From Candidatus Magnetocorallium paracelense (GTDB lineage: Bacteria > Nitrospirota > Thermodesulfovibrionia > Thermodesulfovibrionales > Magnetobacteriaceae): DNA of 64,000 nucleotides. Positions 26,442-59,483 of this stretch are shown one piece after another. The position numbers and the translations under genes were made by a program. The notes beneath the pieces were generated by a model. The model made no database searches, was not told the DNA's origin, and saw only the letters and a list, made by a program, of their open reading frames with translations. How positions within the stretch are numbered: position 1 is the first letter of the stretch; each line of letters starts with the position of its first letter. The stretch spans positions 1 through 64,000 of the forward strand of contig JAREWP010000083.1 in assembly GCA_029001845.1 (NCBI GenBank), given 5' to 3'.

Positions 26442-26495
26442 TAAAAATAATGCACAACTGTCATATTACAAAGAGATTTGATATACTTTATGAAT

Positions 26496-26602: not shown

Positions 26603-26604
26603 TT

Positions 26605-27736: not shown

Positions 27737-27885
27737 GTTCCGAAAATAAACTGATGCGTACCGGAAGGAGCAGCAATGTCCTGCCAAAACAAGCTGAAAC
27801 TCGCAGATTCAAACACCATCTTGTTTTAGCAGGACATCACTGCTATTTCTGATAATTTTTATGTTTTGTAGTGATCCGGACGAGG
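27737..27885. repeat. Family B hairpin element, copy 1
   Basis: Left arm 27769-27793 and right arm 27820-27844 pair over 25 bp (AGCAGCAATGTCCTGCC...GGCAGG region) with two or three mismatches, around a 26-nt loop. Flanks CCGAAAATAA and TTTTATGTTTTGTAGTGATC match the copies at 37926 and 43142. The spacer 27733-27995 has no gene. Confidence 0.88.
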
Positions 27886-37925: not shown

Positions 37926-38092
37926 TTATCCCGAAAATAATCGGCATCGTGCCGGAAGGAGCAGCAATGTCCTGCCAAAACAAGCTGAAACTCGCAGACT
38001 CAAACACCACCTTGTTTTGGCAGGACATCACTGCTCCTTCTTAACCATTTTCATGCTTTGTGGTGACCCGGTGGATCATGGACGTTTGTCCC
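37926..38092. repeat. Family B hairpin element, copy 2
   Basis: Arms 37955-37984 and 38011-38040 pair at 28 of 30 positions around a 26-nt loop beginning CTGAAACTCGCAGACTCAAA. Flanks are CCGAAAATAA on the left and TTTTCATGCTTTGTGGTGAC, CCCGAAGATAGACA on the right. A second module related to the one at 60663 (AGGGGCTGATCTGTGTGTCT) follows at 38117-38137. The 596-bp spacer up to msrA holds no gene. Confidence 0.9.
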
Positions 38093-41758: not shown

Positions 41759-43075
41759 GTGAGCACGCTGCATAAAATCATTATCGACGATTCGCGCGAT
41801 ATGAGCATGGTTCAGAATAATTCGATTCAACTGGTTGTTACATCACCTCCCTATTGGCAGTTGAAGGACTACGGCGGAGTCGAACAAATCGGCTTTAACG
41901 ACTCCTATGAAGACTACATTAACAACCTCAATCTTGTATGGAAGGAGTGTTATCGAGTTCTGGAAAACGGCTGCCGTCTGTGCGTCAATATCGGTGATCA
42001 GTTTGCAAGAGCCGCCTATTACGGCAGATATAAGATAATACCGATCAGAACGGAGATCATTAAATTCTGCGAAACTATAGGATTCGATTACATGGGCGCC
42101 ATTATCTGGCAAAAAGTAACTACTACCAATACTTCGGGAGGCGCTTCAATCATGGGTTCTTATCCATATCCAAGAAACGGCATTCTTAAGCTCGATTATG
42201 AGTTCATATTGTTATTTAAAAAAGGTGGCAAAGAGAGAAAAACGGAGAGGCAATTAAGAGAGCTTTCGGCCCTTACAAAAGAGGAGTGGAACGAATATTT
42301 TTACGGCCACTGGAATTTTCCCGGAGAAAAGCAGAGGAAACATCTCGCAATGTTCCCAATTGAATTGCCGAACAGGTTGATCAAGATGTTTACTTTTGTC
42401 GGAGAGACAGTGCTTGATCCCTTTCTTGGAAGCGGTACGACTTCTTTAAGTGCATCGAATCTGAAAAGAAATTCCATCGGTATTGAAATCAACAAAGAAT
42501 TTCTTCCTCTTATCAAAGAAAGGCTTAGTAAAGAGAGCTCGAATCATGATGGAGAGATCGAAACGGAGATAAAAGTACAGGGAAGGAAAACAATCGATTT
42601 TAAGGCGGAAATTAAAAAATTGCCTTACATATTCAAAGACCCTGTCAGAATCGATAAAAAAACGGACCCTAAAAAGAGTAACTTCGGTTCGAAAATCGAT
42701 AAGAATTCAAAAGAGGAGATTACGTATTTCAACGTCAAAAGAGTTATTGCTCCAGACATGGTGGAGCTGAAAAACAATATGTATGTAAAGTTGCTTGGTG
42801 TAGCAGTAAAAGAGGAGAAGAGGGAAGAGGCTGTCGATTTCCTGATTTCCAAAACAAAAGGACAGAAGGTATTCCTCAAATATGATAAATACAAAACAGA
42901 TGAGTCGGGAAATACTTATTCCTATCTTTTCCTAAAAAATAAAACCTTTTTAAATGCACAATTAATTAAGGCGGGTTTGGCCATAGCAGACAGAAAAAAA
43001 AACTACAGACATAGTCGAAGGTTTATTGAGTACGAGGAGAGTTGTGAGAAAACCAGAATGAGCAAACTAAAATAA
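41759..43075 (+). CDS. DNA methyltransferase (N4C/N6A class) fused to a staphylococcal-nuclease-like domain
   Basis: A 438-residue protein starting at GTG 41759. The methyltransferase part (about 1-265) has motif IV T-S-P-P-Y-W near residue 28 before motif I D-P-F-L-G-S-G-T-T near 222, the beta-class order; S-P-P-Y favours N4-cytosine but does not exclude N6-adenine. The tail (about 315-430) aligns by eye with staphylococcal nuclease: V-I-A-P-D-M-V-E-L, Y-V-K-L-L-G-V, K-G-Q-K-V-F-L-K-Y-D, L-N-A-Q-L-I-K-A-G-L-A. The three catalytic residues of that enzyme (Arg35, Glu43, Arg87) are replaced or missing, so the domain is probably binding-only. No restriction enzyme gene is adjacent. Coupled to the VWA gene. 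Confidence 0.87.
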   Translation: MSTLHKIIIDDSRDMSMVQNNSIQLVVTSPPYWQLKDYGGVEQIGFNDSYEDYINNLNLVWKECYRVLENGCRLCVNIGDQFARAAYYGRYKIIPIRTEIIKFCETIGFDYMGAIIWQKVTTTNTSGGASIMGSYPYPRNGILKLDYEFILLFKKGGKERKTERQLRELSALTKEEWNEYFYGHWNFPGEKQRKHLAMFPIELPNRLIKMFTFVGETVLDPFLGSGTTSLSASNLKRNSIGIEINKEFLPLIKERLSKESSNHDGEIETEIKVQGRKTIDFKAEIKKLPYIFKDPVRIDKKTDPKKSNFGSKIDKNSKEEITYFNVKRVIAPDMVELKNNMYVKLLGVAVKEEKREEAVDFLISKTKGQKVFLKYDKYKTDESGNTYSYLFLKNKTFLNAQLIKAGLAIADRKKNYRHSRRFIEYEESCEKTRMSKLK

Positions 43076-43141
43076 TATAACTACCTGAAAAAGTCTCTCC
43101 CCTTTGATTGGTGAGGCTATGAGAGAGTGTTATAAAAATTT

Positions 43142-43326
43142 GCTCCGTAAATAAACTAATGCGAACCGGAAGCAGCAGTGATGTCCAGCCAAAACAAGCT
43201 GAAACTAGTAAACTCAAACACCACCTTGTTTTGGCTGGACATCACTGCTGCTTCTAACGATTTTCATGCTTTGTGGTGAACCGGAGGTTCATGGACTTTT
43301 ATCCCGAAAATGGACAGCCACAAGAA
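43142..43326. repeat. Family B hairpin element, copy 3 (perfect 30-bp stem)
   Basis: Arms 43169-43198 and 43225-43254 are exact complements, around the loop CTGAAACTAGTAAACTCAAA plus CACCAC. Compared with copy 2, two base pairs differ on both sides of the stem (GAAGG/CCTTC to GAAGC/GCTTC and CCTGCC/GGCAGG to CCAGCC/GGCTGG). Right flank ATTTTCATGCTTTGTGGTGA and CCCGAAAATGGACA match copy 2. Confidence 0.92.
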
Positions 43327-43349
43327 TTACTAATTAAGAGAAAATTATT

Positions 43350-44285
43350 ATGAAAGAATTAACCATACTGCTGTGTACTCCCGATATGCATCGACCTGTT
43401 GCAAGAAGGTGCATAGAGTTCGTGAAAAAAACCGACCTTTCCCGCGCCGAGCTTATTATTGCCGACAATGCGTATGACTCGGAGTTTAATCACGCCAAAG
43501 TTATGGACAGTTATATCGAGTATGCAGGCAAACGTCCAATGATTTTTATGGACGACGATATCGTAATCAACGATTACGACTGGATATCCAAGCTGCTCGA
43601 TACCTGCAGCAAAGCGCAGGCCTCTATAGCCGGCTCGATACATCGTTACGAAACAGGAGAGGTTAACCATCTCGGTATTATTATACATCTTGACGGAACT
43701 CCCGAGCTGATCAGAAATGAACCTTCCGGGGAGAATGGATTTCTATATGCACCTGCCGTAAGCAGCGCCCTGATGCTGATAATGAATCCATTGGAGCACA
43801 ACTTCGATACAGCGTATGTAAAGTATCAGCACGATGTGGACATCTGCATGGAAGCATGGAAGAGGGGAGAAAGAACGGCCTGCGCGCTCGATTTGACTAT
43901 AACGCACCATCTAACGGAATATACTTCTAAGCTCGGGAATTCAAAAAGGAATTTCGAAGAAGATACCATAAGATTTGGAAACAAATGGAAGGAATTCGTC
44001 AACAAGGGTCTGTATGACAGAGATGAACTGGCAGGCTACAGAGAGATCGCCGGACAGAGAAACTGGACTATCTTTTATAATAAGGGATCGAGGATCGAAG
44101 AGAATCATCCTGAAGAGGCAAAAGAGATATTTCGAACCGTAACAAAGGAGTGTCCCTTTAACTGGTTAAAGGCAGGGGCTTTTCTCCATCTCTACAATAT
44201 CGACGGAAACAGAGAGCATCTCAAAGAGTGCCTTACGTATAATCCAAGACATTTGAAGGCAAGGGAAATTCTGAACAATAGTTAA
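43350..44285 (+). CDS. Glycosyltransferase-like protein (GT-A/GT2 type) with C-terminal repeat region
   Basis: A 311-residue protein. The N-terminal half has a GT-A pattern: strand E-L-T-I-L-L-C-T-P-D, E-L-I-I-A-D-N-A, and M-I-F-M-D-D-D-I-V-I, the D-x-D metal/nucleotide-sugar motif, then Y-Q-H-D-V-D-I-C-M-E-A-W-K-R-G and a His pair near T-H-H-L-T-E-Y. The last 90 residues look TPR-like (Y-N-K-G-S-R-I-E-E-N-H-P-E-E-A-K-E-I-F). It precedes the three-part radical SAM gene by 13 nt, so the two form an operon. Cytoplasmic; sugar and acceptor unknown. RBS weak. Confidence 0.8.
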   Translation: MKELTILLCTPDMHRPVARRCIEFVKKTDLSRAELIIADNAYDSEFNHAKVMDSYIEYAGKRPMIFMDDDIVINDYDWISKLLDTCSKAQASIAGSIHRYETGEVNHLGIIIHLDGTPELIRNEPSGENGFLYAPAVSSALMLIMNPLEHNFDTAYVKYQHDVDICMEAWKRGERTACALDLTITHHLTEYTSKLGNSKRNFEEDTIRFGNKWKEFVNKGLYDRDELAGYREIAGQRNWTIFYNKGSRIEENHPEEAKEIFRTVTKECPFNWLKAGAFLHLYNIDGNREHLKECLTYNPRHLKAREILNNS

Positions 44286-44298
44286 CCGTCTTTTTTTA

Positions 44299-46389
44299 AT
44301 GAGAACATATAACGATATAAAAATTGCCGCTGCATTTATCTTTTCCCAAGAGATCACGCAACAGTCAAAAAACAGGGTGGAGAATTTATCCAGGGAAATT
44401 GCCGCTTTTTTTAACAGCCGCAGTACCTGTTTCATGTATTATAGCGAAGACCCTGTCAATTGCAGGAGAAGCCTGTTAAAGGCTGCACTCTTTGAGGATT
44501 ATCGTATCAGGGGGATCGATTATCTCCTGTGGATTAACTCCATTGACGATATTGATCTTTTCAGTATTAAAAAAATCGTAGACAGAGCGGAAAACGAGAG
44601 ACTCGATATAACGGCGTCAATAGGCAACGGACAATGTCTGACAGGTGAATCCCGACCTGAATACAGGTTTTTACTTATTCATATGGAGTGTATACGACAA
44701 TATAACGAGAAGTTTTCCGAAGAGGAGTGGTGTAATTCGAGCCTTTCTCCTGACGAGGCCTTTATCACTCAACTGGAAAGGATAGGTTATACCTTGGACT
44801 CTCTCTCTTTCAGACCCGCCGCTTTTGAAACAAATCCTATGGAGCCTTTCAGGCTGGCAGGAGGTGTGGATTTTGTCAATATTGCACCTTCCTTTTCCCC
44901 TTCACGGGAAAACAGGATTCTAAGGGTAATCGACTCCTTAAAAATGCTCCTTTCCTGCAAATCCGTTGCCCTCTATGGCGCCGGATCGGTCGCTCGCACT
45001 CTCCTGCCAATCATCGAGGATAAGGTGAGATATGTTATCGATATCGATCCGGAGCTTGATGGAAAGGAGTTTTGCGGTTTACCGGTAAAGAAACCGGAGC
45101 TTTTAAAGGACAATATGGAAGGAATAGATACGATCGTTATCACACCTATCGGAAGAGAGAGGGAAATCAGGAAAAGCCTTGAAGAGATATTGGGTGACAA
45201 TAGCGATAAGGTGCGTATCATTGCTTTAAATGAAGCTGTTGAAAAACCTCTTCCTTCTCAGAAAGAGAGAGAGACAGGCAATATCGAGATCGAAAATTCG
45301 GCCCTCCACAGAGAAAACCCCGAGCTTATAAAGAACACCACAAGGGAGCTTACGCAGCGGGGAGTGTTGTATGTGGGATTCCCCTGCAATATTAAATGTG
45401 TTTTCTGCTATTACTTGTCTGCTCCTTTTAAAAACGAGTGGCGTACACTGGAAGAGTGTAAAAGGGATGCCGGCCTTTATCGCAAAGAGTTCAAGAACAG
45501 GAGAGTGGATATAACAGGAGGAGAACCGACAATATATTCCCATATCATGGAACTTCTGGATTACTGCAACGAAATCGGTCTGGTCCCGTCGATGATAACG
45601 AATATGCAGGTTCTGGCGGACTCTGAAAAGGTTAAGGAATTTAAGAAGCACGGCGTTTATGATTTTCTCTGCTCAATACACGCTCTTGGAGACAGTTATG
45701 ACATAATAACAGGAAAACAGGGCGCCTGGAAGAATCTGATCGGGGCTGTAGAGAATCTGGGCGCATACGAGATAAAATGGCGAGTAAACTGTACAATGAC
45801 TTCAATTAACCGTACTCAATTAAAAAGAATCGCACAATTGGCTTATGAAAACGGCGCAAGGGTTATCAATTTTATCAATTTTAATCCCTTCAGGGAGTGG
45901 TCCGACAGAATGGATATTGATTTTCAGTCAAGGCATTCGGAAATCGCACCCTATTTAAAAGAGGCCCTTGATTACTGCGATGAAGTAGGGCTCGAGGCGA
46001 ATGTTCGTTTTTTCCCCTTTTGTAAAATGAAGGGTCATGAGGAGAAGTGCTACAACTACTCTCAGCTGAGTTATGACTCCCATGAATGGGATTTTTGCAG
46101 TTGGCTCTCTGACAAAACCAGAAATCCGACCAGAAAGTTTCCCTCCTCCCTCTTCCGCTTCGTTGAAAAAGAAGAGGATTTTCACCTCTTTATTGCCCAC
46201 AGAATAAGAAAACTGGGATTTATAAAAGGCCCTGCCTGCCGTTTTTGCGCAGTAAGTTATTTATGCGACGGTTTTCTTAAACAGTATGCCGGACGCTTCG
46301 GAATGGATGAGATGGAGCCCTATGAGGGAGAGGTCATTCGCGATCCTGTTGAATTTATCAAATCCCAGAAAAAAGTAGTCGATTTCTGA
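44299..46389 (+). CDS. Three-part protein: glycosyltransferase-like, Rossmann-like and radical SAM domains
   Basis: A 696-residue fusion. Residues 1-205 resemble a GT-A glycosyltransferase (Y-L-L-W-I-N-S-I-D-D-I-D, a D-x-D-type site). Residues about 215-310 form a Rossmann-like domain with V-A-L-Y-G-A-G-S-V-A-R-T-L-L and V-I-D-I-D-P-E, as in sugar-linked nucleotide-binding modules. Residues about 355-560 are a radical SAM domain with C-x3-C-x2-C (C-N-I-K-C-V-F-C, near 362-369), D-I-T-G-G-E-P-T and S-I-H-A-L-G. The C-terminus has C-R-F-C-A-V-S-Y-L-C-D-G, SPASM-like cysteines for a second cluster. It follows a glycosyltransferase gene in an operon. A role in peptide or sugar modification is likely, substrate unknown. 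Confidence 0.83.
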   Translation: MRTYNDIKIAAAFIFSQEITQQSKNRVENLSREIAAFFNSRSTCFMYYSEDPVNCRRSLLKAALFEDYRIRGIDYLLWINSIDDIDLFSIKKIVDRAENERLDITASIGNGQCLTGESRPEYRFLLIHMECIRQYNEKFSEEEWCNSSLSPDEAFITQLERIGYTLDSLSFRPAAFETNPMEPFRLAGGVDFVNIAPSFSPSRENRILRVIDSLKMLLSCKSVALYGAGSVARTLLPIIEDKVRYVIDIDPELDGKEFCGLPVKKPELLKDNMEGIDTIVITPIGREREIRKSLEEILGDNSDKVRIIALNEAVEKPLPSQKERETGNIEIENSALHRENPELIKNTTRELTQRGVLYVGFPCNIKCVFCYYLSAPFKNEWRTLEECKRDAGLYRKEFKNRRVDITGGEPTIYSHIMELLDYCNEIGLVPSMITNMQVLADSEKVKEFKKHGVYDFLCSIHALGDSYDIITGKQGAWKNLIGAVENLGAYEIKWRVNCTMTSINRTQLKRIAQLAYENGARVINFINFNPFREWSDRMDIDFQSRHSEIAPYLKEALDYCDEVGLEANVRFFPFCKMKGHEEKCYNYSQLSYDSHEWDFCSWLSDKTRNPTRKFPSSLFRFVEKEEDFHLFIAHRIRKLGFIKGPACRFCAVSYLCDGFLKQYAGRFGMDEMEPYEGEVIRDPVEFIKSQKKVVDF

Positions 46390-46429
46390 TCCGTTTTTGC
46401 CTGAACCAGAAAGATATCAACCACAGATT

Positions 46430-46932
46430 TCCCAGATCGTACAGATAAAAACAGAACTCCACAAATTTTTTAGAGAAAAAATAACACCTTTAAAGTGCGT
46501 TTTTGAATTACAACCTTCATGTCTTAAGCCGCTACTTACTCCGTTTTTGGAACTACTATTCTAAAATTTTGAAACTGTATTCTAAAAATAGAGTTTTATT
46601 TTATATTGACAATTCTTCATTTTTGTATTATAATTCTAGTCAATACTGCAGCGACATTTTTTGATAAACATTTTAATTATCGCCAGCTTAAACTGCCTCC
46701 AGCCCGGAACGAAAGAAGGTTCAGAGTTATGAAAGAGGGAGGAACCTGTGTGCAAACTGTCACGGGTGAAAACAAAACCCGGAGTAGCCAGAATCAAAAA
46801 AAAGACAGAACACAAATTATATGGATTTATAAGATTGCACAGATTAAGAAAAATAAAAAATCTATGTAATCCCTTATAGATCAGTGCAATCTGAGTTCTG
46901 TCTTTAAATATTAGTACTTTTTTGCACACAAT
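46430..46932. other. Spacer with decayed inverted repeats, no gene
   Basis: The 843-bp gap between the radical SAM gene and the CHAT gene holds no credible coding region. It has ACCACAGATT and ACAGATAAAAACAGAA-like repeat debris, and an imperfect inverted repeat whose arms contain AAAGACAGAAC and AAGATTGCAC (46801-46845) pairing with GTGCAATCT and GTTCTGTCTTT (46884-46906). Confidence 0.6.
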
Positions 46933-46969
46933 TTCACTTATAAGCGACTATGGTTATAAGTGAGGATAA

Positions 46970-47156
46970 CGTCATTCCCGCAATCTTTTAAGCAGAAATC
47001 CAGTGTTTTGAAAAAAGAAATCATCTAATGAACAATATTCGAGACTGCCGGATTCCCGCTGAAGAGATTGCGGGAATGATGTTAAACCTTTAAATTCAAA
47101 GTATTTAAAAGCACAATCCCCCCCCCCTGTGGCTGGTAAAAATGTAGGTAAAGATA
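46970..47156. repeat. Composite repeat: CATTCCCGC palindrome plus C10 tract plus conserved tail
   Basis: Arms GTCATTCCCGCAATCTTTT (46971 on) and GAGATTGCGGGAATGATG (ending about 47086) form an imperfect inverted repeat. AAACCTTTAAA, a run of ten C (47118-47127) and GTGGCTGGTAAAAATGTAGG (47129-47148) with TAAAGATA follow. The same modules occur in inverted order at 62755-62880. It lies directly upstream of the CHAT operon. Confidence 0.75.
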
Positions 47157-47180
47157 AGTCAAAAAAGGGGCAAAAGTGGT

Positions 47181-47226
47181 TATAATTTCAACTTAATTAG
47201 GAACTTACAGCAAAATTAAGAAGGAG
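47181..47226 (+). promoter_or_regulatory. Possible -10 box and RBS of the CHAT operon
   Basis: TATAAT at 47181-47186, preceded by TGGT, could be a promoter -10 element; no good -35 is seen at the usual distance. AAGGAG (47220-47225) lies 7 nt before the CHAT ATG. The C10 tract is 54 bp upstream of the box. Confidence 0.35.
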
Positions 47227-47232
47227 ACCGAA

Positions 47233-50200
47233 ATGAAAAATTACTCGATATTGCAACATAAAATTTCATTTGTATTCGTATTCTTTCTAGTTTTTATATT
47301 CTCTTGTTTTCCTATCCATAACAGCGCATATGCAATAAACGGGAAATCGGTAGGCCGCATACACGTTCCGAATGGAGAAAAACCCGAGAATTTTTACAAG
47401 CTTTTCAGGAACGAGAAGGAAATAAAAGAGCTGTCTCACTCCATGGAAGTAAGAGCTGGTGATATTGTCGCCCCAATTAATAATAAAACAGTATGGATTA
47501 ATCTCGACAATAGATGTAACTCAGAAATAGGAAATACGAAGCAGCCGGTTGTCGTAAGCTGTAAGTTCACGGAAATGAAGGAGAGTGAAAATATTTTCGC
47601 ATTACCCTTCATTCACTTCTACGAAACCTTTTTAAAACTAAAAGCAAAGGAGACCATAGACGCAACTATCTTAGCCCTTATTTACGGTAGCGCAGCTTTT
47701 TCCGCCGTTACAACTAAAGGCGGAGGAAGCTGCGAATGTCTGCCAGATGAGGAATTTAGATTCAGCCGCATACCTCAAGATAATTCCACCCATCTGCACG
47801 GCGAGGAGATGCTCTTTAGTTATAAAGACAAGGACAACGAGTGCTGCGAAGAGGCGGAGTTGGTTCTGATGGACAGTAAAGGCATTGAAGTTCATCGCGA
47901 ATCTCTTCTTCTTGGCGAGATTATGTCGACAACCGATATATCCGGTAAACTCAAAGGAGGAGAGGTCTATCGATGGCATATAAATTTGAAAGGAAAGAAG
48001 ATATCAGGTGAATACAGGCTTAAAGTTCTGGATAAAAAAAGAACGACATATATTAAGAGCATGTTGAAAAGCATTGAGGATCATGCCGGGGAAAACGACC
48101 CTATACTGATGCAAGCCTTTTTTTTACAAATATTGAGTAATGGAAGAGAAGATATCAATCTTTACGAAAAGAGTCTGAGAATGCTCCTTGAATCCGACCT
48201 TGACCTTGACGATAACCATTATGTATATGTCCTTGAAAATCTCGCCAACTCTATCCATGCCTATAACGAAACCTCTGACGACAATACTCACATAGATCCA
48301 AAAACAGCGGAGGTTAAGATTGAAAAGAATGAAGTCGATGCCGACTTCATTAAACGACTCATAGGGCAAACCCGACGCTCACTAAGTGACTCCTTTATCT
48401 ATGAAGAGCATAAAGGCAATTTCAAGGAGGCTCTTCAGTACGTCGAACTTACTGAAAAGGCGCTGGAAGTTTACGATGAGGATGAAGACCTTCTATGGGA
48501 ATCGTGTTACTTAAAGGCAAAAGTTCTTGATTTGATGAATAGACACTCCGAGGCCATCAAAATATACGATGTACTCCTTAAGGATAGCAATGACGACAAA
48601 GAAAAAGTGGCGCTTATTCATGCCTCAAGGTGGCTATCGACAGTCAGTCAATACGTTTCACCTGAAGGCATTCTCTATATGATGACAACAGCCCAGTATA
48701 TGCCAGATATTTCCAAGAAAATGGGAGACAATCAAAAACTTCTTAAAAATATGATGAAAGAGATCAATGACACTTCAATAAAAAGTCGATTAAGGAGACT
48801 GATGTTTATTATTCACAAGATGACCATAAACGGCGCCATGTACTCGGCAAAGGACAATCTTGGCAAGGATAAAATAAAAGGGAGCAAAGCGATCTCGTCG
48901 ATCGAAAACGTATTTAATAACTATTTAAAGGAGTTTCGGGAATGGGGGGGCAAAGAAGCGGAAGCGTATGTGGAATATTCATTGACTGATTTTTTCTTCT
49001 TGGTCGGTGAGGAAGAGGCGGCTATTATAAGTAGCAAAAGGGCAATTGAGATTTACAGAGAGCTAGATGATGAAATCGGTGAAGCCAATGTTCATATGCG
49101 TAAGGGAGACTATTTTATAGGCCCGAACAACAGCCCCGATGTGTTTAACCTTTCCACTGTAAATAAAGGACTAAGTATTACCATGACAAAGGACTTCGGC
49201 AGTCAATATGTTGAACTCTCTCAAAAAGAAGTGATCGATAATTTAGATAAAACCAAAAATTATTACAGTGTGGCCTTGAAGCTTTATGAAAGAGAGGGGT
49301 CTGTCCGGGGAAGGGCTGAGATAATGTTGAGAAAAGGATATATAGCCTTCATCGAGAACAAAGCTGCTGATGCTTACACCTATTACGAAAGGGCGGCCAA
49401 ATTGTTTGAAAGTGTGGGTGATTTTAGAGGTAAAAACAGAACCCTACTCCATCTTGCAAACCTCAATATTTCAAAACAACAATTTAATGAAGCCAAAACG
49501 AATATAGACGAAATTATAAATCTCTTTAAATATAACAAAAACTACGGGATACTTGAAGGCGTAGGCGCAACTCTCGAAAGCTTGGGAATCAACTATTATT
49601 ATGCAAATGTAGATCATGAAAGAGCTCTTTTCTGCTTCGAAACGGCCATAACGTGCTATGAAAATCTCGAAGCCCCAATAACACAGGCATTCAGACTTAA
49701 CGAAATAATAACCCTGTACAGAAAGATAGGCCAGTATAATAAGTCTTTGAACTTGGTGGACAAAGCACTTGGTTATATCAAAAAATATGCTGAGAAACCT
49801 ACGCTTCCAAAGAGTTTTCCTTATCTTAATCTTAAAATGAACCTAATGCTGGAAAAAGCGATTAATAGTTATGAGATTGGGCACTACAAAAAGTCGGTAG
49901 AGTTTCTTAATGAAATGAGAACACTCGGAAAGACATCGGATAATCCTGAAGTCTGGGAAGGTGCCTTTAATTTCTATATGACATACGTCAATATTTTACA
50001 AGAGAATTTTAGTGAAGCTCTCAAATATGCAAAACAGGGAGAAGAGAATGTCTTACTATCGGGAATATATACAAAAAAGAAGGAATTCGACAAATCTATA
50101 GATGTGTTATTAAAGGAACTTGCCGATACCGATAAGAAGATTGAGGAAGAAAAGCAAAAGAAATCGTTTGAAGGCGTGATTATAATCCATAAAAACCACA

Positions 50201-51975
50201 AAGCGACAGTTTTATATAATCTGATACATGTATATAGAAAAAGCGGTCAATGCGATAAATCATTTAAGATGTTGAATGAGTGGAATGATCTGGATGTAAC
50301 CTGGAGCGACAGGTTACATAAACCATGGGATTTTGACGATATGGTGGGTCGGATATTTGAGTGCAAAAAAGAATACCAAAAAGCTTATGAGCACTACGAT
50401 AAAGCAGTCAATTCTCTTGAAACAAACAGGGAGCAGTTTAATGTAAAAGAGTTCAGGGAAAGCTTTGTCGAGGGTAAACAGGATGTTTATGAGCATACGA
50501 TAAAGGTGCTTCTGAAAATGCACGAATCAGCACTTGAGAAAGAGGGATCGGACAATAATAACTACGATGAAATGGCCTTCGGCTATATGGAACGGGCGAA
50601 GTCCAGAACCCTTCTTGAGATTCTGCAGTCTGTCAAAAGAGATTTAGCAGGTTATATTTCCGACGAGGAGAGAAAAGCTGAAAGCCTCTTAAATTCAAAG
50701 ATTAAGAAATTAAATTTAGCAATAGCTTTAGAGGGATCTAAGAAATTAAAGAATAATAAAAAGCTTACACAGCTCAGGAGCGACTTAAGGAAGGCCAGAG
50801 AGACCTATAACAGATTTATGACAAACCTGTACATCAAATACCCCGGTTTAGCACTTAAGCACGGCCAAAGCAAAGTTCTGAAAGGCAGGGAAGCAGTTAA
50901 ATTAGCAGGAGACAACAACATAAAGATTGTAGAGTACTATGTAGGTAAAGAGACTCTTTTTGTTTTTGTTGTGACTGAAGATGGTCTGAAGAGTTACAGT
51001 ATGAATATGGAGAAAAGCGCTTTAAAGAAAAAAATAGCAGCTCTGAGAAGCCCCTTACAGGAGATAAAAAAGAAAGGAAAATATACTCCAGGCAAGTACA
51101 AATATAATAGAGAGTTAGCAGGCAAAATTTATAATTTAATAGTCAAGCCCTTTGAGAGTGAGTTAAATGAGGGTGATACAATAAGCATTGTGCCTGATAA
51201 ATTTTTGTTTGCACTGCCATTTCAGGCCCTTATCGATAACAACGGAAAATACTTAGTCCAAAACTATAAAATCTTTTATGCCCCTTCTACAACTGTTCTA
51301 TATCAATTGATGAAGACCGGAACAGAAACAAAAAAGGCGGCGGCCTTAATGGTTTTCGGTGATCCTGTTTTAGGAAAAAGAGGGGTTTCATGGATGGAAG
51401 GGAGAAGCTATAAAGAGCTTCTCCAGGCAGGCAAAGAGATAGATAAATTGAAGGAGATATTTACGGCCAATATCGATGTCTACCAAAGAGAGCGCATGCT
51501 TGAGGATACATTTAAAAAAGAAGCGCCCAATGCCCGTTCACTCCATCTCTCAACCCACGGCTTACTGGACTCAAAGAGCCCCATGTTCTCAGGTCTGCTC
51601 TTTTCCCAAGGCATATCAAAAAAAGAAGACGGATTTCTCGAAGCAAGAGAGATTATGGACCTTAACCTCTCTAACGTAAACCTTGCAGTCACCTCGGCTT
51701 GTGAAACACGGCTCGGCAGGGTAACTGACGGAGAGGGAATAATCGGGCTGACGAGAGCCTTCTTTACAGCAGGAGTAAATTCGGTGCTCGTAAGTCTCTG
51801 GAGCGTAGCTGATGCGGAACCTACAACTTTGTTAATGGAGCGGTTTTATAGAGAAATTCGGGCAGGGAAAAGTAAAACAGAAGCTTTACAAAGAGCACAA
51901 GTGAAATTAATAGAAGAATCCGAATACACATCCCCCTTCTACTGGGCACCTTTTGTGCTTGCAGGGGGAATGTAA
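47233..51975 (+). CDS. Exported TPR-CHAT (caspase-like) protein
   Basis: A 1580-residue protein. The N-terminus is a strong export signal (hydrophobic 11-27, S-A-Y-A end near 34; the I-F-S-C at 22-25 could instead be a lipobox). Residues about 50-100 look FecR-like (R-A-G-D-I-V). About 380-1130 are TPR-type helical repeats such as A-L-E-V-Y-D-E-D and Y-E-R-A-A-K-L-F. The C-terminal CHAT domain (about 1270-1580) has catalytic His1442 in L-H-L-S-T-H-G and Cys1490 in T-S-A-C-E-T, followed by S-V-L-V-S-L-W-S-V, so the protease is intact. It is the first gene of a three-gene operon with SIR2-like/TIR and nSTAND1 proteins. CHAT proteases execute programmed responses when activated by partners; TPRs probably gate it. 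Where it acts, given the signal, is unclear. Confidence 0.9.
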   Translation: MKNYSILQHKISFVFVFFLVFIFSCFPIHNSAYAINGKSVGRIHVPNGEKPENFYKLFRNEKEIKELSHSMEVRAGDIVAPINNKTVWINLDNRCNSEIGNTKQPVVVSCKFTEMKESENIFALPFIHFYETFLKLKAKETIDATILALIYGSAAFSAVTTKGGGSCECLPDEEFRFSRIPQDNSTHLHGEEMLFSYKDKDNECCEEAELVLMDSKGIEVHRESLLLGEIMSTTDISGKLKGGEVYRWHINLKGKKISGEYRLKVLDKKRTTYIKSMLKSIEDHAGENDPILMQAFFLQILSNGREDINLYEKSLRMLLESDLDLDDNHYVYVLENLANSIHAYNETSDDNTHIDPKTAEVKIEKNEVDADFIKRLIGQTRRSLSDSFIYEEHKGNFKEALQYVELTEKALEVYDEDEDLLWESCYLKAKVLDLMNRHSEAIKIYDVLLKDSNDDKEKVALIHASRWLSTVSQYVSPEGILYMMTTAQYMPDISKKMGDNQKLLKNMMKEINDTSIKSRLRRLMFIIHKMTINGAMYSAKDNLGKDKIKGSKAISSIENVFNNYLKEFREWGGKEAEAYVEYSLTDFFFLVGEEEAAIISSKRAIEIYRELDDEIGEANVHMRKGDYFIGPNNSPDVFNLSTVNKGLSITMTKDFGSQYVELSQKEVIDNLDKTKNYYSVALKLYEREGSVRGRAEIMLRKGYIAFIENKAADAYTYYERAAKLFESVGDFRGKNRTLLHLANLNISKQQFNEAKTNIDEIINLFKYNKNYGILEGVGATLESLGINYYYANVDHERALFCFETAITCYENLEAPITQAFRLNEIITLYRKIGQYNKSLNLVDKALGYIKKYAEKPTLPKSFPYLNLKMNLMLEKAINSYEIGHYKKSVEFLNEMRTLGKTSDNPEVWEGAFNFYMTYVNILQENFSEALKYAKQGEENVLLSGIYTKKKEFDKSIDVLLKELADTDKKIEEEKQKKSFEGVIIIHKNHKATVLYNLIHVYRKSGQCDKSFKMLNEWNDLDVTWSDRLHKPWDFDDMVGRIFECKKEYQKAYEHYDKAVNSLETNREQFNVKEFRESFVEGKQDVYEHTIKVLLKMHESALEKEGSDNNNYDEMAFGYMERAKSRTLLEILQSVKRDLAGYISDEERKAESLLNSKIKKLNLAIALEGSKKLKNNKKLTQLRSDLRKARETYNRFMTNLYIKYPGLALKHGQSKVLKGREAVKLAGDNNIKIVEYYVGKETLFVFVVTEDGLKSYSMNMEKSALKKKIAALRSPLQEIKKKGKYTPGKYKYNRELAGKIYNLIVKPFESELNEGDTISIVPDKFLFALPFQALIDNNGKYLVQNYKIFYAPSTTVLYQLMKTGTETKKAAALMVFGDPVLGKRGVSWMEGRSYKELLQAGKEIDKLKEIFTANIDVYQRERMLEDTFKKEAPNARSLHLSTHGLLDSKSPMFSGLLFSQGISKKEDGFLEAREIMDLNLSNVNLAVTSACETRLGRVTDGEGIIGLTRAFFTAGVNSVLVSLWSVADAEPTTLLMERFYREIRAGKSKTEALQRAQVKLIEESEYTSPFYWAPFVLAGGM

Positions 51976-51993
51976 AAATTGAAGGAGACAAAT

Positions 51994-53334
51994 ATGGCTG
52001 AATGTGTTTGGGACGATGAGAACTGGTCTGCCCTTATTCATGCAATTCATCAAAGAAGATGTATCCTTTTTCTGGGACCTGAGGCTTCACAGGAAATGCA
52101 TTCTGGCAGGAGCATTCCATGTACAGAAGTACTGGCGATGGAACTTTCAGAAAAAATCAAAGACAATATAGATTCATGGAATATTCATCTCGACACTTTG
52201 AATTTGGCGCAGGTTTCACAGTATTTCACTATGATTAAGGATAGATTCGTATTAGAGGCAAAGGTTTCTGAATTTTATGCAAGCCGTCATGATAGTATAA
52301 GCGAGTTGCATAATAATCTCTCTGAACTGCCTTTCCCCCTTACAATCCTTACGACTCCGGATCTCATGTTTTTTAATTCACTTAAAGCCGTTAACAAGAC
52401 ACCTATGATCAGGCGTCATCATTTTAGAGATACAAATGAAAAACTGATTTCAGAGGGAACTGTTGATAAGCCGCTTATTTACTACTTGTATGGAACAGTA
52501 GACGAACCGAACTCTCTGGTACTTACTGAGGATGATATTCTGGATCTCTTTGTTAAAGTACTTATGCAAGAATCTCTTCCAATTAACATTAAAGACATGC
52601 TGCGGGAGAAAAACAGAAGTCTGCTGTTTATAGGTTTTGGTTTTAAATACTGGTACTTACGTGTACTTCTTCATATTTTAAAGATAAGGAGCAGGGGGAA
52701 CCGATCCTTTGCACTTGAGCATGAAATGCCTCAAAATATATCTGAATTTGAACGAACTGTAATTTTTTTCAAGGAGAGTGACTACCAAATTCACCTGTTT
52801 AAGGAAGATATTATTCAGTTTACAAAGGAGCTTCGAAAAAAGTATGAGAAATACAAGACATGTACAATAGATACGGTAGCGGATACAGAGAGAAGGGAGT
52901 ATGATCGGATGCCTACAATCTTTTTGTGTTATACAAATGAAGACAAAGTCAAGGCTGAGGACTTATATAAAGCACTAAAATTAAATGGTAACAACCCATG
53001 GATAGACAGTCATGGTCTCAGAGGAGGCGATGACTGGGATAAGCATATTCAGCGTACGATTAAAGAGATCGACTATTTCCTTGTTCTTAACAGCAAGTCT
53101 CTTATAAATAAGAATGAAGGGTATGTGTATGATGAGATATTTTCTGCCATGAAAAGACATCGTAGTTTTAAACGTGGTCTCAGATTTATTATTCCTCTCA
53201 AAATAGATGAATGCGATGTACTTGAGGAGTTGGAATATTTACATTGCATTGATCTTAAGTCGGACCATAATATCAATGCGCTGATAAAGACAATTGAAAA
53301 AGATTGGGAGCGCAGGAATAGAGAGGTAAGATGA
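51994..53334 (+). CDS. SIR2-like and TIR domain protein
   Basis: Starting at ATG 51994 (GAAGGAG 5 nt upstream, 18 nt after the CHAT stop), 446 residues. The N-terminal SIR2-like domain (about 12-290) has the glycine loop F-L-G-P-E-A-S at 26-32, L-V-L-T-E-D-D-I-L-D-L and the closing L-L-F-I-G-F-G-F-K-Y-W-Y-L. The catalytic His of the H-G motif is Tyr166 (Y-L-Y-G), so it may be inactive for NAD cleavage. The TIR domain (about 306-440) has F-L-C-Y-T-N-E-D, W-I-D-S-x-G-L-R-G-G-D-D-W and the NADase Glu381 in Y-V-Y-D-E-I. Its stop overlaps the next ATG (ATGA). It is a likely NAD-depleting or signalling effector in a cell-death type system. Confidence 0.85.
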   Translation: MAECVWDDENWSALIHAIHQRRCILFLGPEASQEMHSGRSIPCTEVLAMELSEKIKDNIDSWNIHLDTLNLAQVSQYFTMIKDRFVLEAKVSEFYASRHDSISELHNNLSELPFPLTILTTPDLMFFNSLKAVNKTPMIRRHHFRDTNEKLISEGTVDKPLIYYLYGTVDEPNSLVLTEDDILDLFVKVLMQESLPINIKDMLREKNRSLLFIGFGFKYWYLRVLLHILKIRSRGNRSFALEHEMPQNISEFERTVIFFKESDYQIHLFKEDIIQFTKELRKKYEKYKTCTIDTVADTERREYDRMPTIFLCYTNEDKVKAEDLYKALKLNGNNPWIDSHGLRGGDDWDKHIQRTIKEIDYFLVLNSKSLINKNEGYVYDEIFSAMKRHRSFKRGLRFIIPLKIDECDVLEELEYLHCIDLKSDHNINALIKTIEKDWERRNREVR

Positions 53335-55283
53335 ATATCACTGAAAGTTACAGGTACCCTGGATCTGCTCCTTTTCAAGATACAGTCCATGATCGTCTTA
53401 TATTTTTTGGAAGAGAAGAAGAGGGCAAGCTCCTTTTTCATATGATTTCAAGCGAGCGGCTGCTTGTGCTTTTTGCGCGTTCAGGTATTGGTAAGACTTC
53501 TTTAGTGAACGCGGGCTTAATGAAACCATTGAGAGATAACAATTTCATTCCAATCTCCGTTCGCTTTAATAATACGGATGAGTCTCCGATAGAATCGATT
53601 TATTCGGCGATGGATTCTTTAAAAATAGAGGGTAAAGGTTTTTATTTTAAAGGTAATAAAACCAGTTTCTGGCATTTTTTTAAGACATCTGAATTCTGGT
53701 CCCAAGATGATAAATTAATGACACCACTTATTATACTTGATCAATTCGAGGATTTTTTTATCTTCCACTCAAAAGAGAAACGTGGAGATTTTATAGAGCA
53801 GCTTGCTGGTCTTTTAGGAGACAAGCCACCAAAAGAGGTAACGGAGTTGCTGAAAACAGGTAAATCTTCTCTTAATACCGATAGTCCTGAAGTAAAAGTA
53901 TTAATTGCTATTAGGGAAGACTATCTTGCATCCATGGATGAAATGTCCATTAAAATTCCGCTCATTCTCCATAGTCGATTTAGGTTATTACCCTTAAGTC
54001 GTGAACAGGCGGAGATATCCATTATTAACCCTGGAGAGCTGGAAGATTCACAAATTAAATCAAATCCGCTTATTTTTGATCAAAAAGCAACAACATCTAT
54101 CCTGGATTTTTTATGCAAACGTCATGAGAGGGGCCAAACATATATAGGCGATGAAGTAGAGCCATTTCAATTACAATTACTGTGTAATTATATTGATAAA
54201 AAAACAGAAAGTGACAGAGAAAAACGTGAGGTTGATTCGGAAAGTCTTGTTGGCGAAAATGGAGAAAAGAGGATGGAGAAGATTTTGGAAGGGTTTTACG
54301 AAAGACAATTGAAAAGTAGGGGAGGGATATGGAAGAGAAGAAGGCTAAGCAGATTATGCGAAAAGGGTTTAATAAATACGACTAACCAAAGGTTAAGCCT
54401 TGAGGTTGGTGAGATTAGCAGGATATATGGTATTCAGAAAAAGGAACTTGAGGAGCTTGTTAATGCCCGTCTCTTGCGTGCTGATCACCGTGTGGGAAGC
54501 GTGTATTATGAATTATCTCATGACACAATTGTAAAACCTATAAAGGCCCATCAAAACAAGCATTTTATACAAAATTTTAAGTACGGCTCAGTGATGGCAC
54601 TCGTAATAATTATAATTCTAACAGGAGTATTATTTAAATATAATAAAAGTTATGACTCTCTATTATCAGATAATTTAATTAGTCTTGGTGATAAGAATTT
54701 AGAAAGAGGTGAATTTAAAGAAGCAGAGGAGAATTATTTAAAAGCTTTTAACCTTTATAGTAACAAGCGCGAAATTTACAATAAATTGATTACTTTATAT
54801 GAGTTAGAGGAAAAAGAAGATAGAGCATTTGGAATTTATATGAAATTGGAAGCTGCACTAAGAGAAGAAGTACAAAACGCCCCTAATAACATTGATATTT
54901 ATTATCAATTAGGGACTGTATTGTTTAAATTAAGGAAATATACAGATGCTATAGATGTATACGATAAAATAATAGAATTTGATTCTGACAATGAGAACGC
55001 TTACTTGGAAAAAGGAATAATTTACTTCACCTTGGAAAAATATGATGAGGCGATAAGGGAGTATAGTAAAGCAATAGAAATTAATCCTAACAATGAAATT
55101 GCTTATAGTAAGTTAAGCGATAGCTTCTTTCTCTTAGGTAACATTGAGGACGGCTTGGAGCAGGCACTAAAAGTATCTGAGTTTGAATCTCAGCGTAATG
55201 TTCTTAGTGATGCTGCATATGAGATGGGACGTCTCGCAGATGAGCTTGAATATAGCTTAAACTCAAAGTCAACAACTCGGTAG
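53331..55283 (+). CDS. nSTAND1-type ATPase with membrane segment and TPR repeats
   Basis: A 650-residue protein. P-Y-P-G-type start (Y-R-Y-P-G-S-A-P-F), then F-F-G-R-E-E-E, is the entry motif of nSTAND1 NTPases. Walker A is A-R-S-G-I-G-K-T-S (49-57), Walker B is L-I-I-L-D-Q-F-E-D-F-F, and V-L-I-A-I-R-E-D-Y is the sensor strand. A winged-helix part ends L-S-H-D-T-I-V-K-P-I. One hydrophobic helix (about 420-441) is followed by TPR repeats (about 450-620; A-Y-L-E-K-G-I-I-Y-F-T-L-E-K-Y-D-E-A). STAND ATPases act as sensors that oligomerise on a trigger. The ATGA overlap with the SIR2/TIR gene means coupled translation. Probable sensor/switch of the operon. Confidence 0.87.
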   Translation: MNITESYRYPGSAPFQDTVHDRLIFFGREEEGKLLFHMISSERLLVLFARSGIGKTSLVNAGLMKPLRDNNFIPISVRFNNTDESPIESIYSAMDSLKIEGKGFYFKGNKTSFWHFFKTSEFWSQDDKLMTPLIILDQFEDFFIFHSKEKRGDFIEQLAGLLGDKPPKEVTELLKTGKSSLNTDSPEVKVLIAIREDYLASMDEMSIKIPLILHSRFRLLPLSREQAEISIINPGELEDSQIKSNPLIFDQKATTSILDFLCKRHERGQTYIGDEVEPFQLQLLCNYIDKKTESDREKREVDSESLVGENGEKRMEKILEGFYERQLKSRGGIWKRRRLSRLCEKGLINTTNQRLSLEVGEISRIYGIQKKELEELVNARLLRADHRVGSVYYELSHDTIVKPIKAHQNKHFIQNFKYGSVMALVIIIILTGVLFKYNKSYDSLLSDNLISLGDKNLERGEFKEAEENYLKAFNLYSNKREIYNKLITLYELEEKEDRAFGIYMKLEAALREEVQNAPNNIDIYYQLGTVLFKLRKYTDAIDVYDKIIEFDSDNENAYLEKGIIYFTLEKYDEAIREYSKAIEINPNNEIAYSKLSDSFFLLGNIEDGLEQALKVSEFESQRNVLSDAAYEMGRLADELEYSLNSKSTTR

Positions 55284-55331: not shown

Positions 55332-56554
55332 ATGATTGAATCCATAACAGTAAAATCAGTAGCAAGCTTTGATGAGCATACCGGAATCAAATTGGATGAG
55401 CTAAAGAAGGTCAACTTTATTTATGGCTCGAATGGCAGTGGCAAGACAACAATCTCTAACTTTCTCGCAGATGAGAACAATTCACTTTTCAACAAATGTG
55501 TACTACAGTGGAAAGGATATCTCCCTCTAAAACGTTTAGTTTACAATAAAATGTTCCGGGAAAAAAATTTTCGGAAAAGGCGCAATTGACGGCGTGTTTA
55601 CTCTTGGGCATGCTACAAAAGAGGTTTTAGATTTAATAAAGAGCAATCAAAAGAAGCTATCTGAGTTTAAAAGCGAGGCTCAGGAAAGGAAGGCAGCCTT
55701 AGAGTCACTAAAGGAACAGAAAACACAAGAAGATAAAGCCTTCAAGGAACTTGCCTGGACAAGTATATACAAAAAGTATGAAGTAGATTTTAAAGAGGGT
55801 TTGAGAGGATGTCTGCAAAAGGAAAGCTTTAGTCAAAACCTCATTAACGAGTTCGAAGTCAATACATCCGAGACTTTAGATATTGAGGTATTAAGAGAAA
55901 AAGCCAAAACGATTTTTCACGAAAAACCTATAGAGTTACCTACTATTCCAAACATTAACGCAGACATTCTTTTTCCCATCGAAGACGATGAAATCTGGGC
56001 TAAGAATATTGTAGGAAAATCTGATGTAGATATCTCTAAGCTAATTCAGGAATTGAACATCGATGACTGGGTTAATCAAGGTCGTAACTATATTCATGAA
56101 AATGACATATGCCCTTTTTGTCAGAAAAAAACTATTTCTGACGAATTCAAAATACAACTTGAAAACTACTTTGATAACTCATACGCAAAATCAATTGATA
56201 GGCTAAAGAAGCAAACTTCTGCTCATGAATCCATCATTAATAAGGTCAGTAGGGAGCTACAGCGACACAAATTATTGGATTCTGAGAAAAGTCAACAAGC
56301 AATCTTCCATACAGGCATATGGTATGGACAATCCAATTCAGACATCATATGATCTGCTGTGGAAAGAGATTAGAGACTGGGATAAATCCTCCGCTGTCTC
56401 AATTCAAAATACAATGAGGAGAATCATTGAGAATTACTTCAAGATTCTTGGGAGATATGGAGACGATGATCTGGTTAATCATTTCTCAACAAAAGAAGAA
56501 AAAGATATATGCCAATCAATAACCGCGGTCTGTATCTTAAAAAACAGAAAATAA
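55332..56554 (+). pseudogene. Decayed AAA_13 (PrrC/RloC-like) ATPase gene
   Basis: Starts at ATG 55332: V-K-S-V-A-S-F then Y-G-S-N-G-S-G-K-T-T-I-S, a Walker A of AAA_13/RloC-type ATPases. A one-base excess in the AATTTTC run near 55567-55571 shifts the frame: the other frame resumes F-G-K-G-A-I-D-G-V-F-T-L-G-H-A and continues to a zinc-like I-C-P-F-C-Q motif. Near 56265 it jumps to another frame reading N-Y-W-I-L-R-K-V-N-K-Q-S-S-I and S-I-Q-N-T-M-R-R-I-I-E-N-Y-F-K-I-L-G, a C-terminal family block. The part with the ABC signature and Walker B is deleted, and the end is truncated. So it cannot make an active ATPase. It sits 48 bp after the nSTAND1 gene. Confidence 0.78.
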
Positions 56555-58313: not shown

Positions 58314-59483
58314 ATGAATTCCGAAGTAACCGTATTGATTGCAGCAAGAAACTCCGAAACTACCATTGCCAGGGCTGTTGCGTCTGCAATGAAGGAGTCT
58401 CCCGCTGAAATTCTTCTTATCGACGATTTCTCTGAGGACAATACAGTAAGAGAGGCCAAATCCGTCTCCGATGGCAGACTCAGGGTCGTCTCACCTCCTA
58501 AACACGGAACTCTGGGGTTTACAAGGCAGTTCGGATTGAATGAGGTTAGGACTACTTTTGGAATATTATTGGATTCCGACGATGAGTTTATAGAGGGACG
58601 TGTAAATAATATGGTTAATCGCCTTAAAGAAGATGGGACAGACTTTGTCAGCGACGGCGCTGAACTTATCGACGGTGCAACCGGCAGGAAAATCGGACTT
58701 TTGCATATCCCCTCTTTTCTCTTTCCTTACAAACTCCAGGCTCGCCTCTTTGAGAGAAATTATCTGCCCGGAAGCGGTTTTGTCGGATTCAGAACCAAAA
58801 GCGCGCTGAAAGCGGGCTACGATACTGAACTCCACGGCCCTGAGGACTTTGGCTTTCTTTTAAGAGCAGTCGCAAGAAGAGCAGGTTTCAGTCTCATGGA
58901 AGATATCGGATACCGTTATTACGAATATCCCGGAAGTATTTCAAGAAAGATCGGAAAACAGCGGGAGATGTACAAAAAAGCTCTCTTAAAGCACGACTAC
59001 GAGAATGTTCGGGTTCTCTATAAAGAGGCAGGACACACAGAATGGGTCACATCATGGGGGCTTGTGTTTATGGCTACGTACAGGCAGGAGTATGCCATGG
59101 CTTTGGGATTTTTAAATGAAGCAGTGGCCATAACAAATAATACCACTAAAGTAGTCGAACCGGATGGACCATACCCTTTCAGAGAAGACTGGCGCATAGC
59201 CTTTCACGAAGGCACGCTCAATTTACTCCTTGGAAATATCGAAAAAGCGACAGCGTCTCTTGAAAAAGCTATTGAGATTTCCCACAGGCCCGAAGCCGCA
59301 AACAATCTCGGTGTTGCAGAGGCTAAATCGGGAAATTTAAGAAAAGCTCAAACACTCTTTAACAGGGCGGCGGAACTCTCTCCCTCGTATTTGGACGCAA
59401 GGCGTAATATAGAGAATGAAGGAAGTTTCAATATTACAACTCAGCCGATAAGACATCATCCCACAAGAGACAGGTATCGATGA
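58314..59483 (+). CDS. Glycosyltransferase family 2 with C-terminal TPR
   Basis: A 389-residue protein. The GT2 domain (about 1-220) starts V-T-V-L-I-A-A-R-N-S-E-T-T-I, then I-L-L-I-D-D-F-S-E-D-N-T, and I-L-L-D-S-D-D-E-F as the D-x-D metal site; G-P-E-D-F-G-F-L-L-R is the catalytic E-D-x motif near the end. The rest has TPR-like repeats: A-L-G-F-L-N-E-A-V-A, A-T-A-S-L-E-K-A-I-E-I-S-H-R-P-E-A-A-N-N-L-G and A-Q-T-L-F-N-R-A-A-E-L-S-P-S-Y. Similar domain pairing to the gene at 43350-44285. Probably cytoplasmic, possibly modifying a protein. Single gene. Confidence 0.87.
   Translation: MNSEVTVLIAARNSETTIARAVASAMKESPAEILLIDDFSEDNTVREAKSVSDGRLRVVSPPKHGTLGFTRQFGLNEVRTTFGILLDSDDEFIEGRVNNMVNRLKEDGTDFVSDGAELIDGATGRKIGLLHIPSFLFPYKLQARLFERNYLPGSGFVGFRTKSALKAGYDTELHGPEDFGFLLRAVARRAGFSLMEDIGYRYYEYPGSISRKIGKQREMYKKALLKHDYENVRVLYKEAGHTEWVTSWGLVFMATYRQEYAMALGFLNEAVAITNNTTKVVEPDGPYPFREDWRIAFHEGTLNLLLGNIEKATASLEKAIEISHRPEAANNLGVAEAKSGNLRKAQTLFNRAAELSPSYLDARRNIENEGSFNITTQPIRHHPTRDRYR

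Follow-up and report, generated by a model that had tools for sequence, protein, structure and literature searches.

A glycosyltransferase gene beside a three-module radical SAM gene in Candidatus Magnetocorallium paracelense: a possible glycan-tailoring pair

The genome of Candidatus Magnetocorallium paracelense (6.0 Mb) carries, on contig JAREWP010000083.1, two adjacent forward-strand genes only 13 nucleotides (nt) apart, which we call A and B. Gene A encodes a predicted glycosyltransferase and gene B a protein in which a radical S-adenosylmethionine (SAM) domain follows two further modules (Table 1). Both lie in the first 64 kilobases (kb) of the 99.9-kb contig, which is the stretch that we analysed and refer to as the window. 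Our analysis suggests that the two proteins may act together on a sugar or glycan, and we find that pairs of this kind recur in related genomes, in another bacterial family and on viral contigs.

Table 1. Features of the A/B locus, in window coordinates (aa, amino acids; ORF, open reading frame).
Feature	Coordinates	Strand	Basis
Gene A: GT-A (GT2-like) glycosyltransferase, 311 aa; C-terminal tail at about residues 226-311	43350..44285	+	ORF and family profile
Gene A, DDD (DxD-type) motif MDDDI	43548..43562	+	DDD or EDD in 17/17 long family members
Gene A, acidic motif HDVDIC (xED-type)	43830..43847	+	[HQ]DxD in 17/17 long members
Gene B: three-module radical SAM protein, 696 aa	44299..46389	+	ORF, Pfam, 10 other full-length copies aligned
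Gene B, N-terminal domain, residues 1-205: without assignment; candidate degenerate GT-A, not demonstrated	44299..44913	+	Pfam, PDB and profile-profile comparison all without significant match
Gene B, predicted Rossmann domain, residues 206-312	44914..45234	+	Model block means 56-78 for residues 211-310; fold matches
Gene B, radical SAM domain and C-terminal auxiliary-cluster region, residues 345-696	45331..46386	+	PF04055, model, PHROG 27238
Gene B, CX3CX2C (C363-C367-C370), predicted SAM-cleaving [4Fe-4S] cluster	45385..45408	+	28/28 subfamily rows
Gene B, C575, first candidate ligand of auxiliary cluster	46021..46023	+	28/28 rows
Gene B, C647-x2-C650-x5-C656, remaining candidate auxiliary-cluster ligands	46237..46266	+	28/28 rows

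Taken alone, gene A is an indistinct member of its class: its match to the Pfam family of GT2 glycosyltransferases (PF00535) has E 0.002, below the cut-off, and its sequence gave no significant match in the PDB. Judged by its family profile, however, the assignment of A to the GT-A glycosyltransferases, by which we mean proteins with a DxD-type motif and an acidic catalytic motif, is clear. PF00535 is matched by 14 of the 25 family members at E 0.1 (best E 2.5e-6), and the family profile aligns in hhalign with one built from 18 further GT2 domains of the fetched loci, at probabilities of 98.1% (local, E 8.4e-14) and 99.1% (global, E 1.4e-17). Besides its two acidic motifs A retains a histidine motif, and all three are kept together in every one of the 17 long family members, the window gene included. 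The family nevertheless forms a subfamily of its own, in which a C-x(3-8)-C-x2-C tail closes 16 of the 17 long proteins, A being the exception. In the operons of relatives the position of A is occupied by a short paralogue that has lost the first aspartate of the DDD motif in eight of eight cases, yet A has kept its motifs. A first-pass annotation, made by a model from the sequence and its open reading frames without database searches, had called the gene a glycosyltransferase, which our profiles confirm; the tail resembling tetratricopeptide repeats (TPR) that it added finds no support, since Pfam offered no TPR model at E up to 1 and the family profile reached only a designed TPR protein, at E 0.84.

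Gene B is a real gene, since ten other full-length copies align with it at 46-49% identity across the whole protein. Its radical SAM domain is certain from sequence (PF04055, E 1.5e-16 in B and present in 11/11 full-length rows). Across 28 rows of the subfamily, from bacteria and viruses, the invariant residues include C363, C367, C370, H461, N497, R570, P573, C575, D593, W597, C647, C650, C656 and G658, and the only invariant cysteines beyond the CX3CX2C motif are C575, C647, C650 and C656. This pattern predicts a SAM-cleaving cluster and one four-cysteine auxiliary cluster, fewer than in a canonical SPASM domain, which has seven cysteines and two auxiliary clusters. With four extra conserved cysteines and not seven, and with no match to the SPASM model PF13186 at E 0.1 in the 11 full-length members, B is not a canonical SPASM protein, and in that sense the SPASM-like label of the first pass is not confirmed. 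In NCBIfam, none of the best 25 of 47 matched models meets its cut-off, the best by E-value scoring 57.6 of 525 bits.

A model of the radical SAM part, built from the window sequence and ten viral homologues (predicted local distance difference test, pLDDT, 75.8; predicted template-modelling score, pTM, 0.80), aligns with SkfB (Z 19.7, 3.2 Å over 259 residues), BlsE (19.6, 3.3 Å, 264) and anSME (19.5, 4.1 Å, 299), followed by SuiB (18.9), viperin-like enzymes (18.4) and DesII (16.2 over 256 residues). Since the top rows are tied within Z 1, the fold cannot choose between a peptide and a sugar substrate. The sugar nucleoside and nucleotide enzymes in question, the cytosylglucuronate decarboxylase BlsE (7vob) and DesII (8hzv), share the radical SAM fold with B, but the identity is 15%, they are tied with peptide maturases, and the BlsE model is not among the best 25 of the 47 NCBIfam matches.

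The first-pass annotation had described B as a three-part protein, with GT-A-like, nucleotide-binding and radical SAM parts. The radical SAM part stands, and model and fold favour a nucleotide-binding-like part at about residues 206-312; the GT-A part has no profile support. Residues 1-205 match nothing in Pfam, for the window protein as for 11 members, and their profile gave no significant match in the PDB. Against the A family and the 18 GT2 domains hhalign returned probabilities of 0.5 and 0.4, compared with 1.1-2.0 for reversed controls (1.1 for GT2). The best local alignment to the GT2 profile (columns 48-99), which by eye lies near the DxD region, scores 16.3; the reversed control reaches 19.4, and none of 12 column shuffles exceeds 15.7. 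An hmmsearch for GT-A in B using 362 proteins gave as best non-member E 0.04, with a poor alignment, and the single-sequence model of B, with pLDDT <50 over residues 1-211, says little on a GT-A fold. To the eye, the succession of strands and helices could be that of a GT-A fold lacking DxD, which we do not count as evidence. A GT-A domain is thus unsupported by all of these searches. Since no glycosyltransferase profile matches residues 1-205, an outcome that the first-pass annotation had itself named as refuting it, B is better named an unassigned domain/Rossmann/radical SAM protein.

For residues 206-312, Pfam gives only sub-threshold matches (CoA_binding 0.036, Methyltransf_14 0.15). In Foldseek the matches to the model of this domain are led by Rex NADH-binding domains (E 4.7e-5), with 3nkl, a UDP-D-quinovosamine 4-dehydrogenase, at E 3.8e-4 (template-modelling score 0.58 of the target; its sequence match is weak, E 0.01) and the sugar-nucleotide enzymes KijD1, MtmC, VioB and TcaB9 at E 0.005-0.06. 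The methyltransferases TcaB9, KijD1 and MtmC, together with VioB and 3nkl, have a Rossmann module in common with B, at a root-mean-square deviation of 2.9-5.4 over 86-115 columns in the rows with a local alignment; the likeness is confined to that module, and at E 4e-4 to 0.06 it ranks behind the Rex repressors. A Rossmann-type module 30-39% identical to that of B occurs in four genomes of the family, and in three of them it sits at the C-terminus of a GT2-type protein (L058-L060).

Among the genomes that we searched, only those of the source genome's family have full-length B. The source genome itself has a second full-length copy (contig C74, locus L043; 48% identical) and a relative consisting of the radical SAM part only (C18; 36%), and full-length B is found in 9 of 18 other genomes of the family and in 0 of 41 further genomes of the order. 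In a survey of the phylum 13 of 395 genomes match B at E 1e-30, eight with full-length proteins, all in the source family, and five in the radical SAM part only. The A family appears at E 1e-15 in nine of the 395, namely the eight with full-length B and one other, where the domain sits inside a 1215-aa GT-GT-methyltransferase protein. Since two candidates were scored per genome for B and at most five for the A family, these counts may miss relatives in other genomes. A scan of public genomes for close relatives of B returned one weak match in Bacilli, and a plasmid search four weak matches.

Nine of the ten other full-length loci have one or more A-type glycosyltransferases adjoining B, the exception being the second copy in the source genome. 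The order in relatives is a short A-like gene (224-262 aa), B, and two long A-like genes. In L047-L049 the next gene encodes a 665-673-aa protein that has weak glycosyltransferase-type matches, and in L045, L050 and L051 a second radical SAM/SPASM gene and DUF354 follow further on; L053 deviates, with a single long A copy after B and the short copy further upstream. Because the A-family profile includes rows from the loci labelled f1, the glycosyltransferase assignments at these loci in the 1.5-kb count given below are circular, and their identity rests on PF00535 and on the GT2 profile-profile matches. Next to an A paralogue of the source genome (contig C56, L057) lies a 991-aa protein (10172-13147) with several glycosyltransferase-like parts and, by eye, a C-terminal Rossmann-like part.

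The association holds for the wider radical SAM subfamily as well. Of 31 subfamily loci, 20 have a GT-A gene fused to the radical SAM gene or no more than 1.5 kb away from it; in a control set of 27 other radical SAM loci, taken from these genomes and related ones, the number is 1. Left out of the 31 were near copies of viral rows that were kept (L092, L093, L099, L100, L104-L110) and loci that did not align as subfamily members (L011, L085-L087); since the rows are related to each other, the counts express a strong tendency and not a probability. In two genomes of another family a GT-A domain with DDD is fused to a B-type radical SAM domain in a 605-aa protein. The L080 fusion is 36% identical to B over 338 aa, and the fused GT-A domains are the best non-members for the A-family profile (E 1.2e-5 and 5.9e-5 in 362 proteins). 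Overlapping genes occur on three viral contigs, L095, L096 and L103, where a GT2 gene shares sequence with the end of the radical SAM gene. It could be argued that A and B are unconnected neighbours in general surface-polysaccharide metabolism, with no joint step, and the source genome does hold a B copy without an adjacent glycosyltransferase (C74) and an A relative without an adjacent B (C56). However, the operon order conserved in related genomes, the fusions and viral pairs, and the co-occurrence in the same 8 of 395 genomes make this quite unlikely.

In a tree of 28 rows full-length B forms one clade (support 100/99), to which the protein of the viral record L084 is sister (98/98), and nine further viral proteins group together in a clade of their own (100/100); an earlier tree with four outgroup radical SAM proteins had long branches and a support of 57/99 for full-length B, and was rebuilt without outgroups. 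That L084 is viral rests on its IMG/VR label, since a comparison of one of its large ORFs with the PDB for a terminase gave no match; the A family was not found in this record. Among phage proteins B resembles PHROG 27238 (a 'radical SAM domain-containing protein' of the Campylobacter phage CPt10 type), with positions 13-350 of its radical SAM domain aligning to 22-334 of 338, almost the full length, at E 2e-25, and with the same invariant cysteines, D593 and W597. Unlike B, the phage proteins examined (337-361 aa) consist of the radical SAM part only, and their function in PHROGs is a domain name only. Matches to B occur in 15 of 50,697 phage records, all of them Campylobacter phages. Passages on the Campylobacter phages CP220 and CPt10 give 11 and 12 radical SAM proteins and there name no glycan role (PMC2853527), and a passage elsewhere names radical SAM among unusual features (PMC3322345). 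In pelagimyophages, according to passages in PMC7029224, radical SAM cassettes lie in a host-recognition region that also holds glycosyltransferases.

Some neighbourhoods of relatives contain appendage genes. In both L079 and L080 the radical SAM genes are preceded, at a distance of about 4.5 kb, by a type IV pilin gene (N_methyl, E 4.9e-7 and 6.6e-10); the L080 neighbourhood also has a TMEM260-like O-mannosyltransferase (E 1.6e-30), and that of L079 a flippase for polysaccharides (E 3e-23) and a TPR protein. Additional A-type genes, short and long, are found away from B in three genomes of a single genus (in G010 on two contig ends). We examined two of these three: at L122 the A-type pair has flagellin no more than about 3 kb away and FliS nearby, and at L123 the pair lies 1.5 kb from FlgE, with a FliI-type ATPase near. 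The source genome has 16 flagellin matches, some cut by contig ends, of which six are on the single contig C59. Flippases and TMEM260-like enzymes would use lipid-linked sugars, and the radical SAM domain might then act on an envelope lipid or a lipid-linked carrier instead of on a sugar or a protein. Such a role would suit the top PDB sequence-profile match of B, a tetraether lipid synthase (E 1.4e-14), and the MurJ-like gene, recognised by eye, upstream of the second B copy in the source genome. We consider it improbable, since peptide and nucleotide enzymes stand close in the same PDB ranking and the Rossmann module shows no lipid link.

Could B instead be a maturase of peptides or proteins, acting for example on the cysteine-rich C-terminal tails of its partner glycosyltransferases, or on a glycoprotein that the glycosyltransferases also modify? 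Its closest folds include SkfB, anSME and SuiB, its radical SAM part matches the HxsC4 model end to end (350-674 to 11-334 of 335, E 2.5e-9), and the tails are present in nearly all long A-type proteins, though A itself has none. Cysteine-rich proteins also occur near viral members of the subfamily: L095 (3-2486) and L103 (2610-3218) encode, close to arrays of several radical SAM genes, proteins with four CNCNY repeats near the C-terminus that are possible substrates of one of these enzymes, and phage CPt10 has a 141-aa cysteine-repeat protein (CPt10_1641; L089, 6693-7118) three genes upstream of its radical SAM gene. The likeness to the maturases HxsC and HxsC4 (TIGR03977, NF038332) is long, and the relatives L044 and L082 reach 135.6 and 150.6 bits with HxsC4, but B itself stays far under the cut-offs, with 47.1 of 267.9 bits for HxsC and 36.8 of 500 for HxsC4. 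On these scores we rejected a His-Xaa-Ser maturase identity for B. No His-Xaa-Ser repeat protein, (HxS)3, was found among the 410 genes called in the window and in 24 fetched neighbourhoods.

A precursor gene is also hard to place. As the first-pass annotation had noted for the flanks, no precursor peptide was seen by eye among the small ORFs of the window flanks, nor in the intra-operon gaps of nine loci, which at -19 to 159 nt leave little room for one, though distant precursors are possible. The longest three gaps (82, 117 and 159 nt) contain open frames of 16-53 aa, and what they have in common by eye is a short palindromic DNA stretch and not a peptide; the stretch, GGGGTCAAGGG...CTGG...CCC, lies in the gap between B and the next glycosyltransferase gene in three genomes of one genus (L047 8949-9030, L048 7463-7621, L049 8473-8589). 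Moreover, a radical SAM domain fused directly to a glycosyltransferase whose DDD is intact points to glycans. We think a peptide or protein substrate unlikely. The first pass had suggested a pathway, not obviously described, for the maturation of a sugar or a peptide. Its sugar half is borne out by the operon, the fusion and the overlapping pairs; for its peptide half the window offers nothing positive. In the open-access literature, to which our search extended (subscription papers lay outside it), we found no description of such a glycosyltransferase/radical SAM pair or fusion.

The interpretation that we favour, with a probability of about one half, is that A and B form a glycan-tailoring pair, in which the radical SAM enzyme alters a sugar or glycan transferred by its partner glycosyltransferases, perhaps onto appendages. 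Judging by its family and motifs, gene A would move a sugar from a nucleotide sugar to an acceptor. In B, an activated sugar is probably bound at its nucleotide end by the Rossmann domain; the radical SAM domain would cleave SAM at C363/C367/C370 and take a hydrogen atom from the sugar, with a second [4Fe-4S] cluster, at C575, C647, C650 and C656, as donor or acceptor of an electron. The sugar would thereby be altered, whether by epimerisation, oxidation or loss of an oxygen, and A and its relatives would build it into a cell-surface glycan, perhaps, as the neighbours in relatives suggest, on flagellin or type IV pilin. Residues 1-205 of B, speculatively, may be a GT-A domain without catalytic motifs that serves binding.

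A number of observations weigh against this interpretation. Eleven of the 31 subfamily loci have no GT-A by our in-house profiles, although Pfam finds GT2 in three of them (L044, L084, L096); the positive L102 (E 5e-4) is as weak as the sole control positive, L006 (E 5e-4), and the stretches compared were slightly shorter for the controls than for the subfamily loci. Many of the loci are related, and association is not function. The second B copy of the source genome has no glycosyltransferase within 1.5 kb, and no nucleotide-sugar biosynthesis gene was recognised in the operons. As modelled, the radical SAM part fits the peptide maturases SkfB and anSME as well as it fits BlsE, and the top fold matches of the Rossmann model, which in that search also included the poorly predicted N-terminal part, are NADH-binding Rex repressors and not sugar enzymes. 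Finally, the flagellar neighbourhood concerns A-type genes without B, and none of the flagellin matches in the source genome falls on contigs bearing A, B or their paralogues.

On its 5' side the A/B locus is bordered by an N6/N4 DNA methyltransferase fused to a Staphylococcal-nuclease-like domain (41759-43075). The 274-nt gap preceding A contains a hairpin with 33-nt arms (43169-43254) that is also present at 27778-27835 and 37969-38026 and is a genome-wide repeat, with 54 forward and 55 reverse arm matches at up to 3 mismatches, against zero in the source genome for the arm pattern read backwards as a control. No Rfam family was found in 42900-47300, and a promoter and terminator scan of the locus gave results near chance. 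Elsewhere in the window, about 16-17 kb upstream of A and B, there is a second radical SAM gene, for a protein of 289 aa, and after it a glycosyltransferase gene of the group-1/GT4 type (25572-27732); the source genome has 93 radical SAM matches in all. A GT2 glycosyltransferase at 58314-59483 does have a TPR tail, which matches the TPRs of O-GlcNAc transferase and designed TPR proteins.

On the 3' side an 843-nt gap separates B from genes for a TPR-CHAT protein with a hydrophobic N-terminal stretch (by eye), a SIR2/TIR protein and an nSTAND1-TPR protein (47233-55283), which are 3 nt apart or overlapping and probably form a defence- or signalling-like operon. A 252-aa ORF at 55594-56352 covers only positions 87-321 of the 732 in the PDC-S06 model and 85-319 of 713 in AAA_13, and looks truncated. 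The CHAT, SIR2/TIR and STAND genes would suit a prokaryotic viperin, a nucleotide-modifying defence enzyme, and B indeed matches the PADLOC model pVip over 362-527 (E 5.7e-15), with viperins among its fold matches. The score, however, is 45.1 bits against a curated cut-off of 180 (NF038283), and on it we reject the assignment; moreover, the relatives of B sit in glycosyltransferase operons, and viperins have neither the C-terminal four-cysteine region nor Rossmann or N-terminal domains such as those of B. We regard a viperin as very improbable.

Returning to the glycan-tailoring pair, a more general idea can be put forward tentatively, as one that we hold to be rather less likely than the pair itself. 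A GT-A module and a radical SAM module, sometimes in one polypeptide, may constitute a 'write and edit' device, in which the glycosyltransferase module would place or hold a sugar and the radical SAM module would alter one of its C-H bonds, on flagella, on pili and possibly on phage surface structures. In the source family two modules would have been added to capture the substrate, one of Rossmann type and one that is GT-A-like but catalytically dead. Radical SAM enzymes with sugar substrates have been described chiefly in antibiotic pathways. Their conserved pairing and fusion with GT-A glycosyltransferases, near appendage genes in some bacteria and on viral contigs, would bring radical chemistry to surface glycans as well, and would suggest a concrete and testable role for the uncharacterised phage family PHROG 27238.

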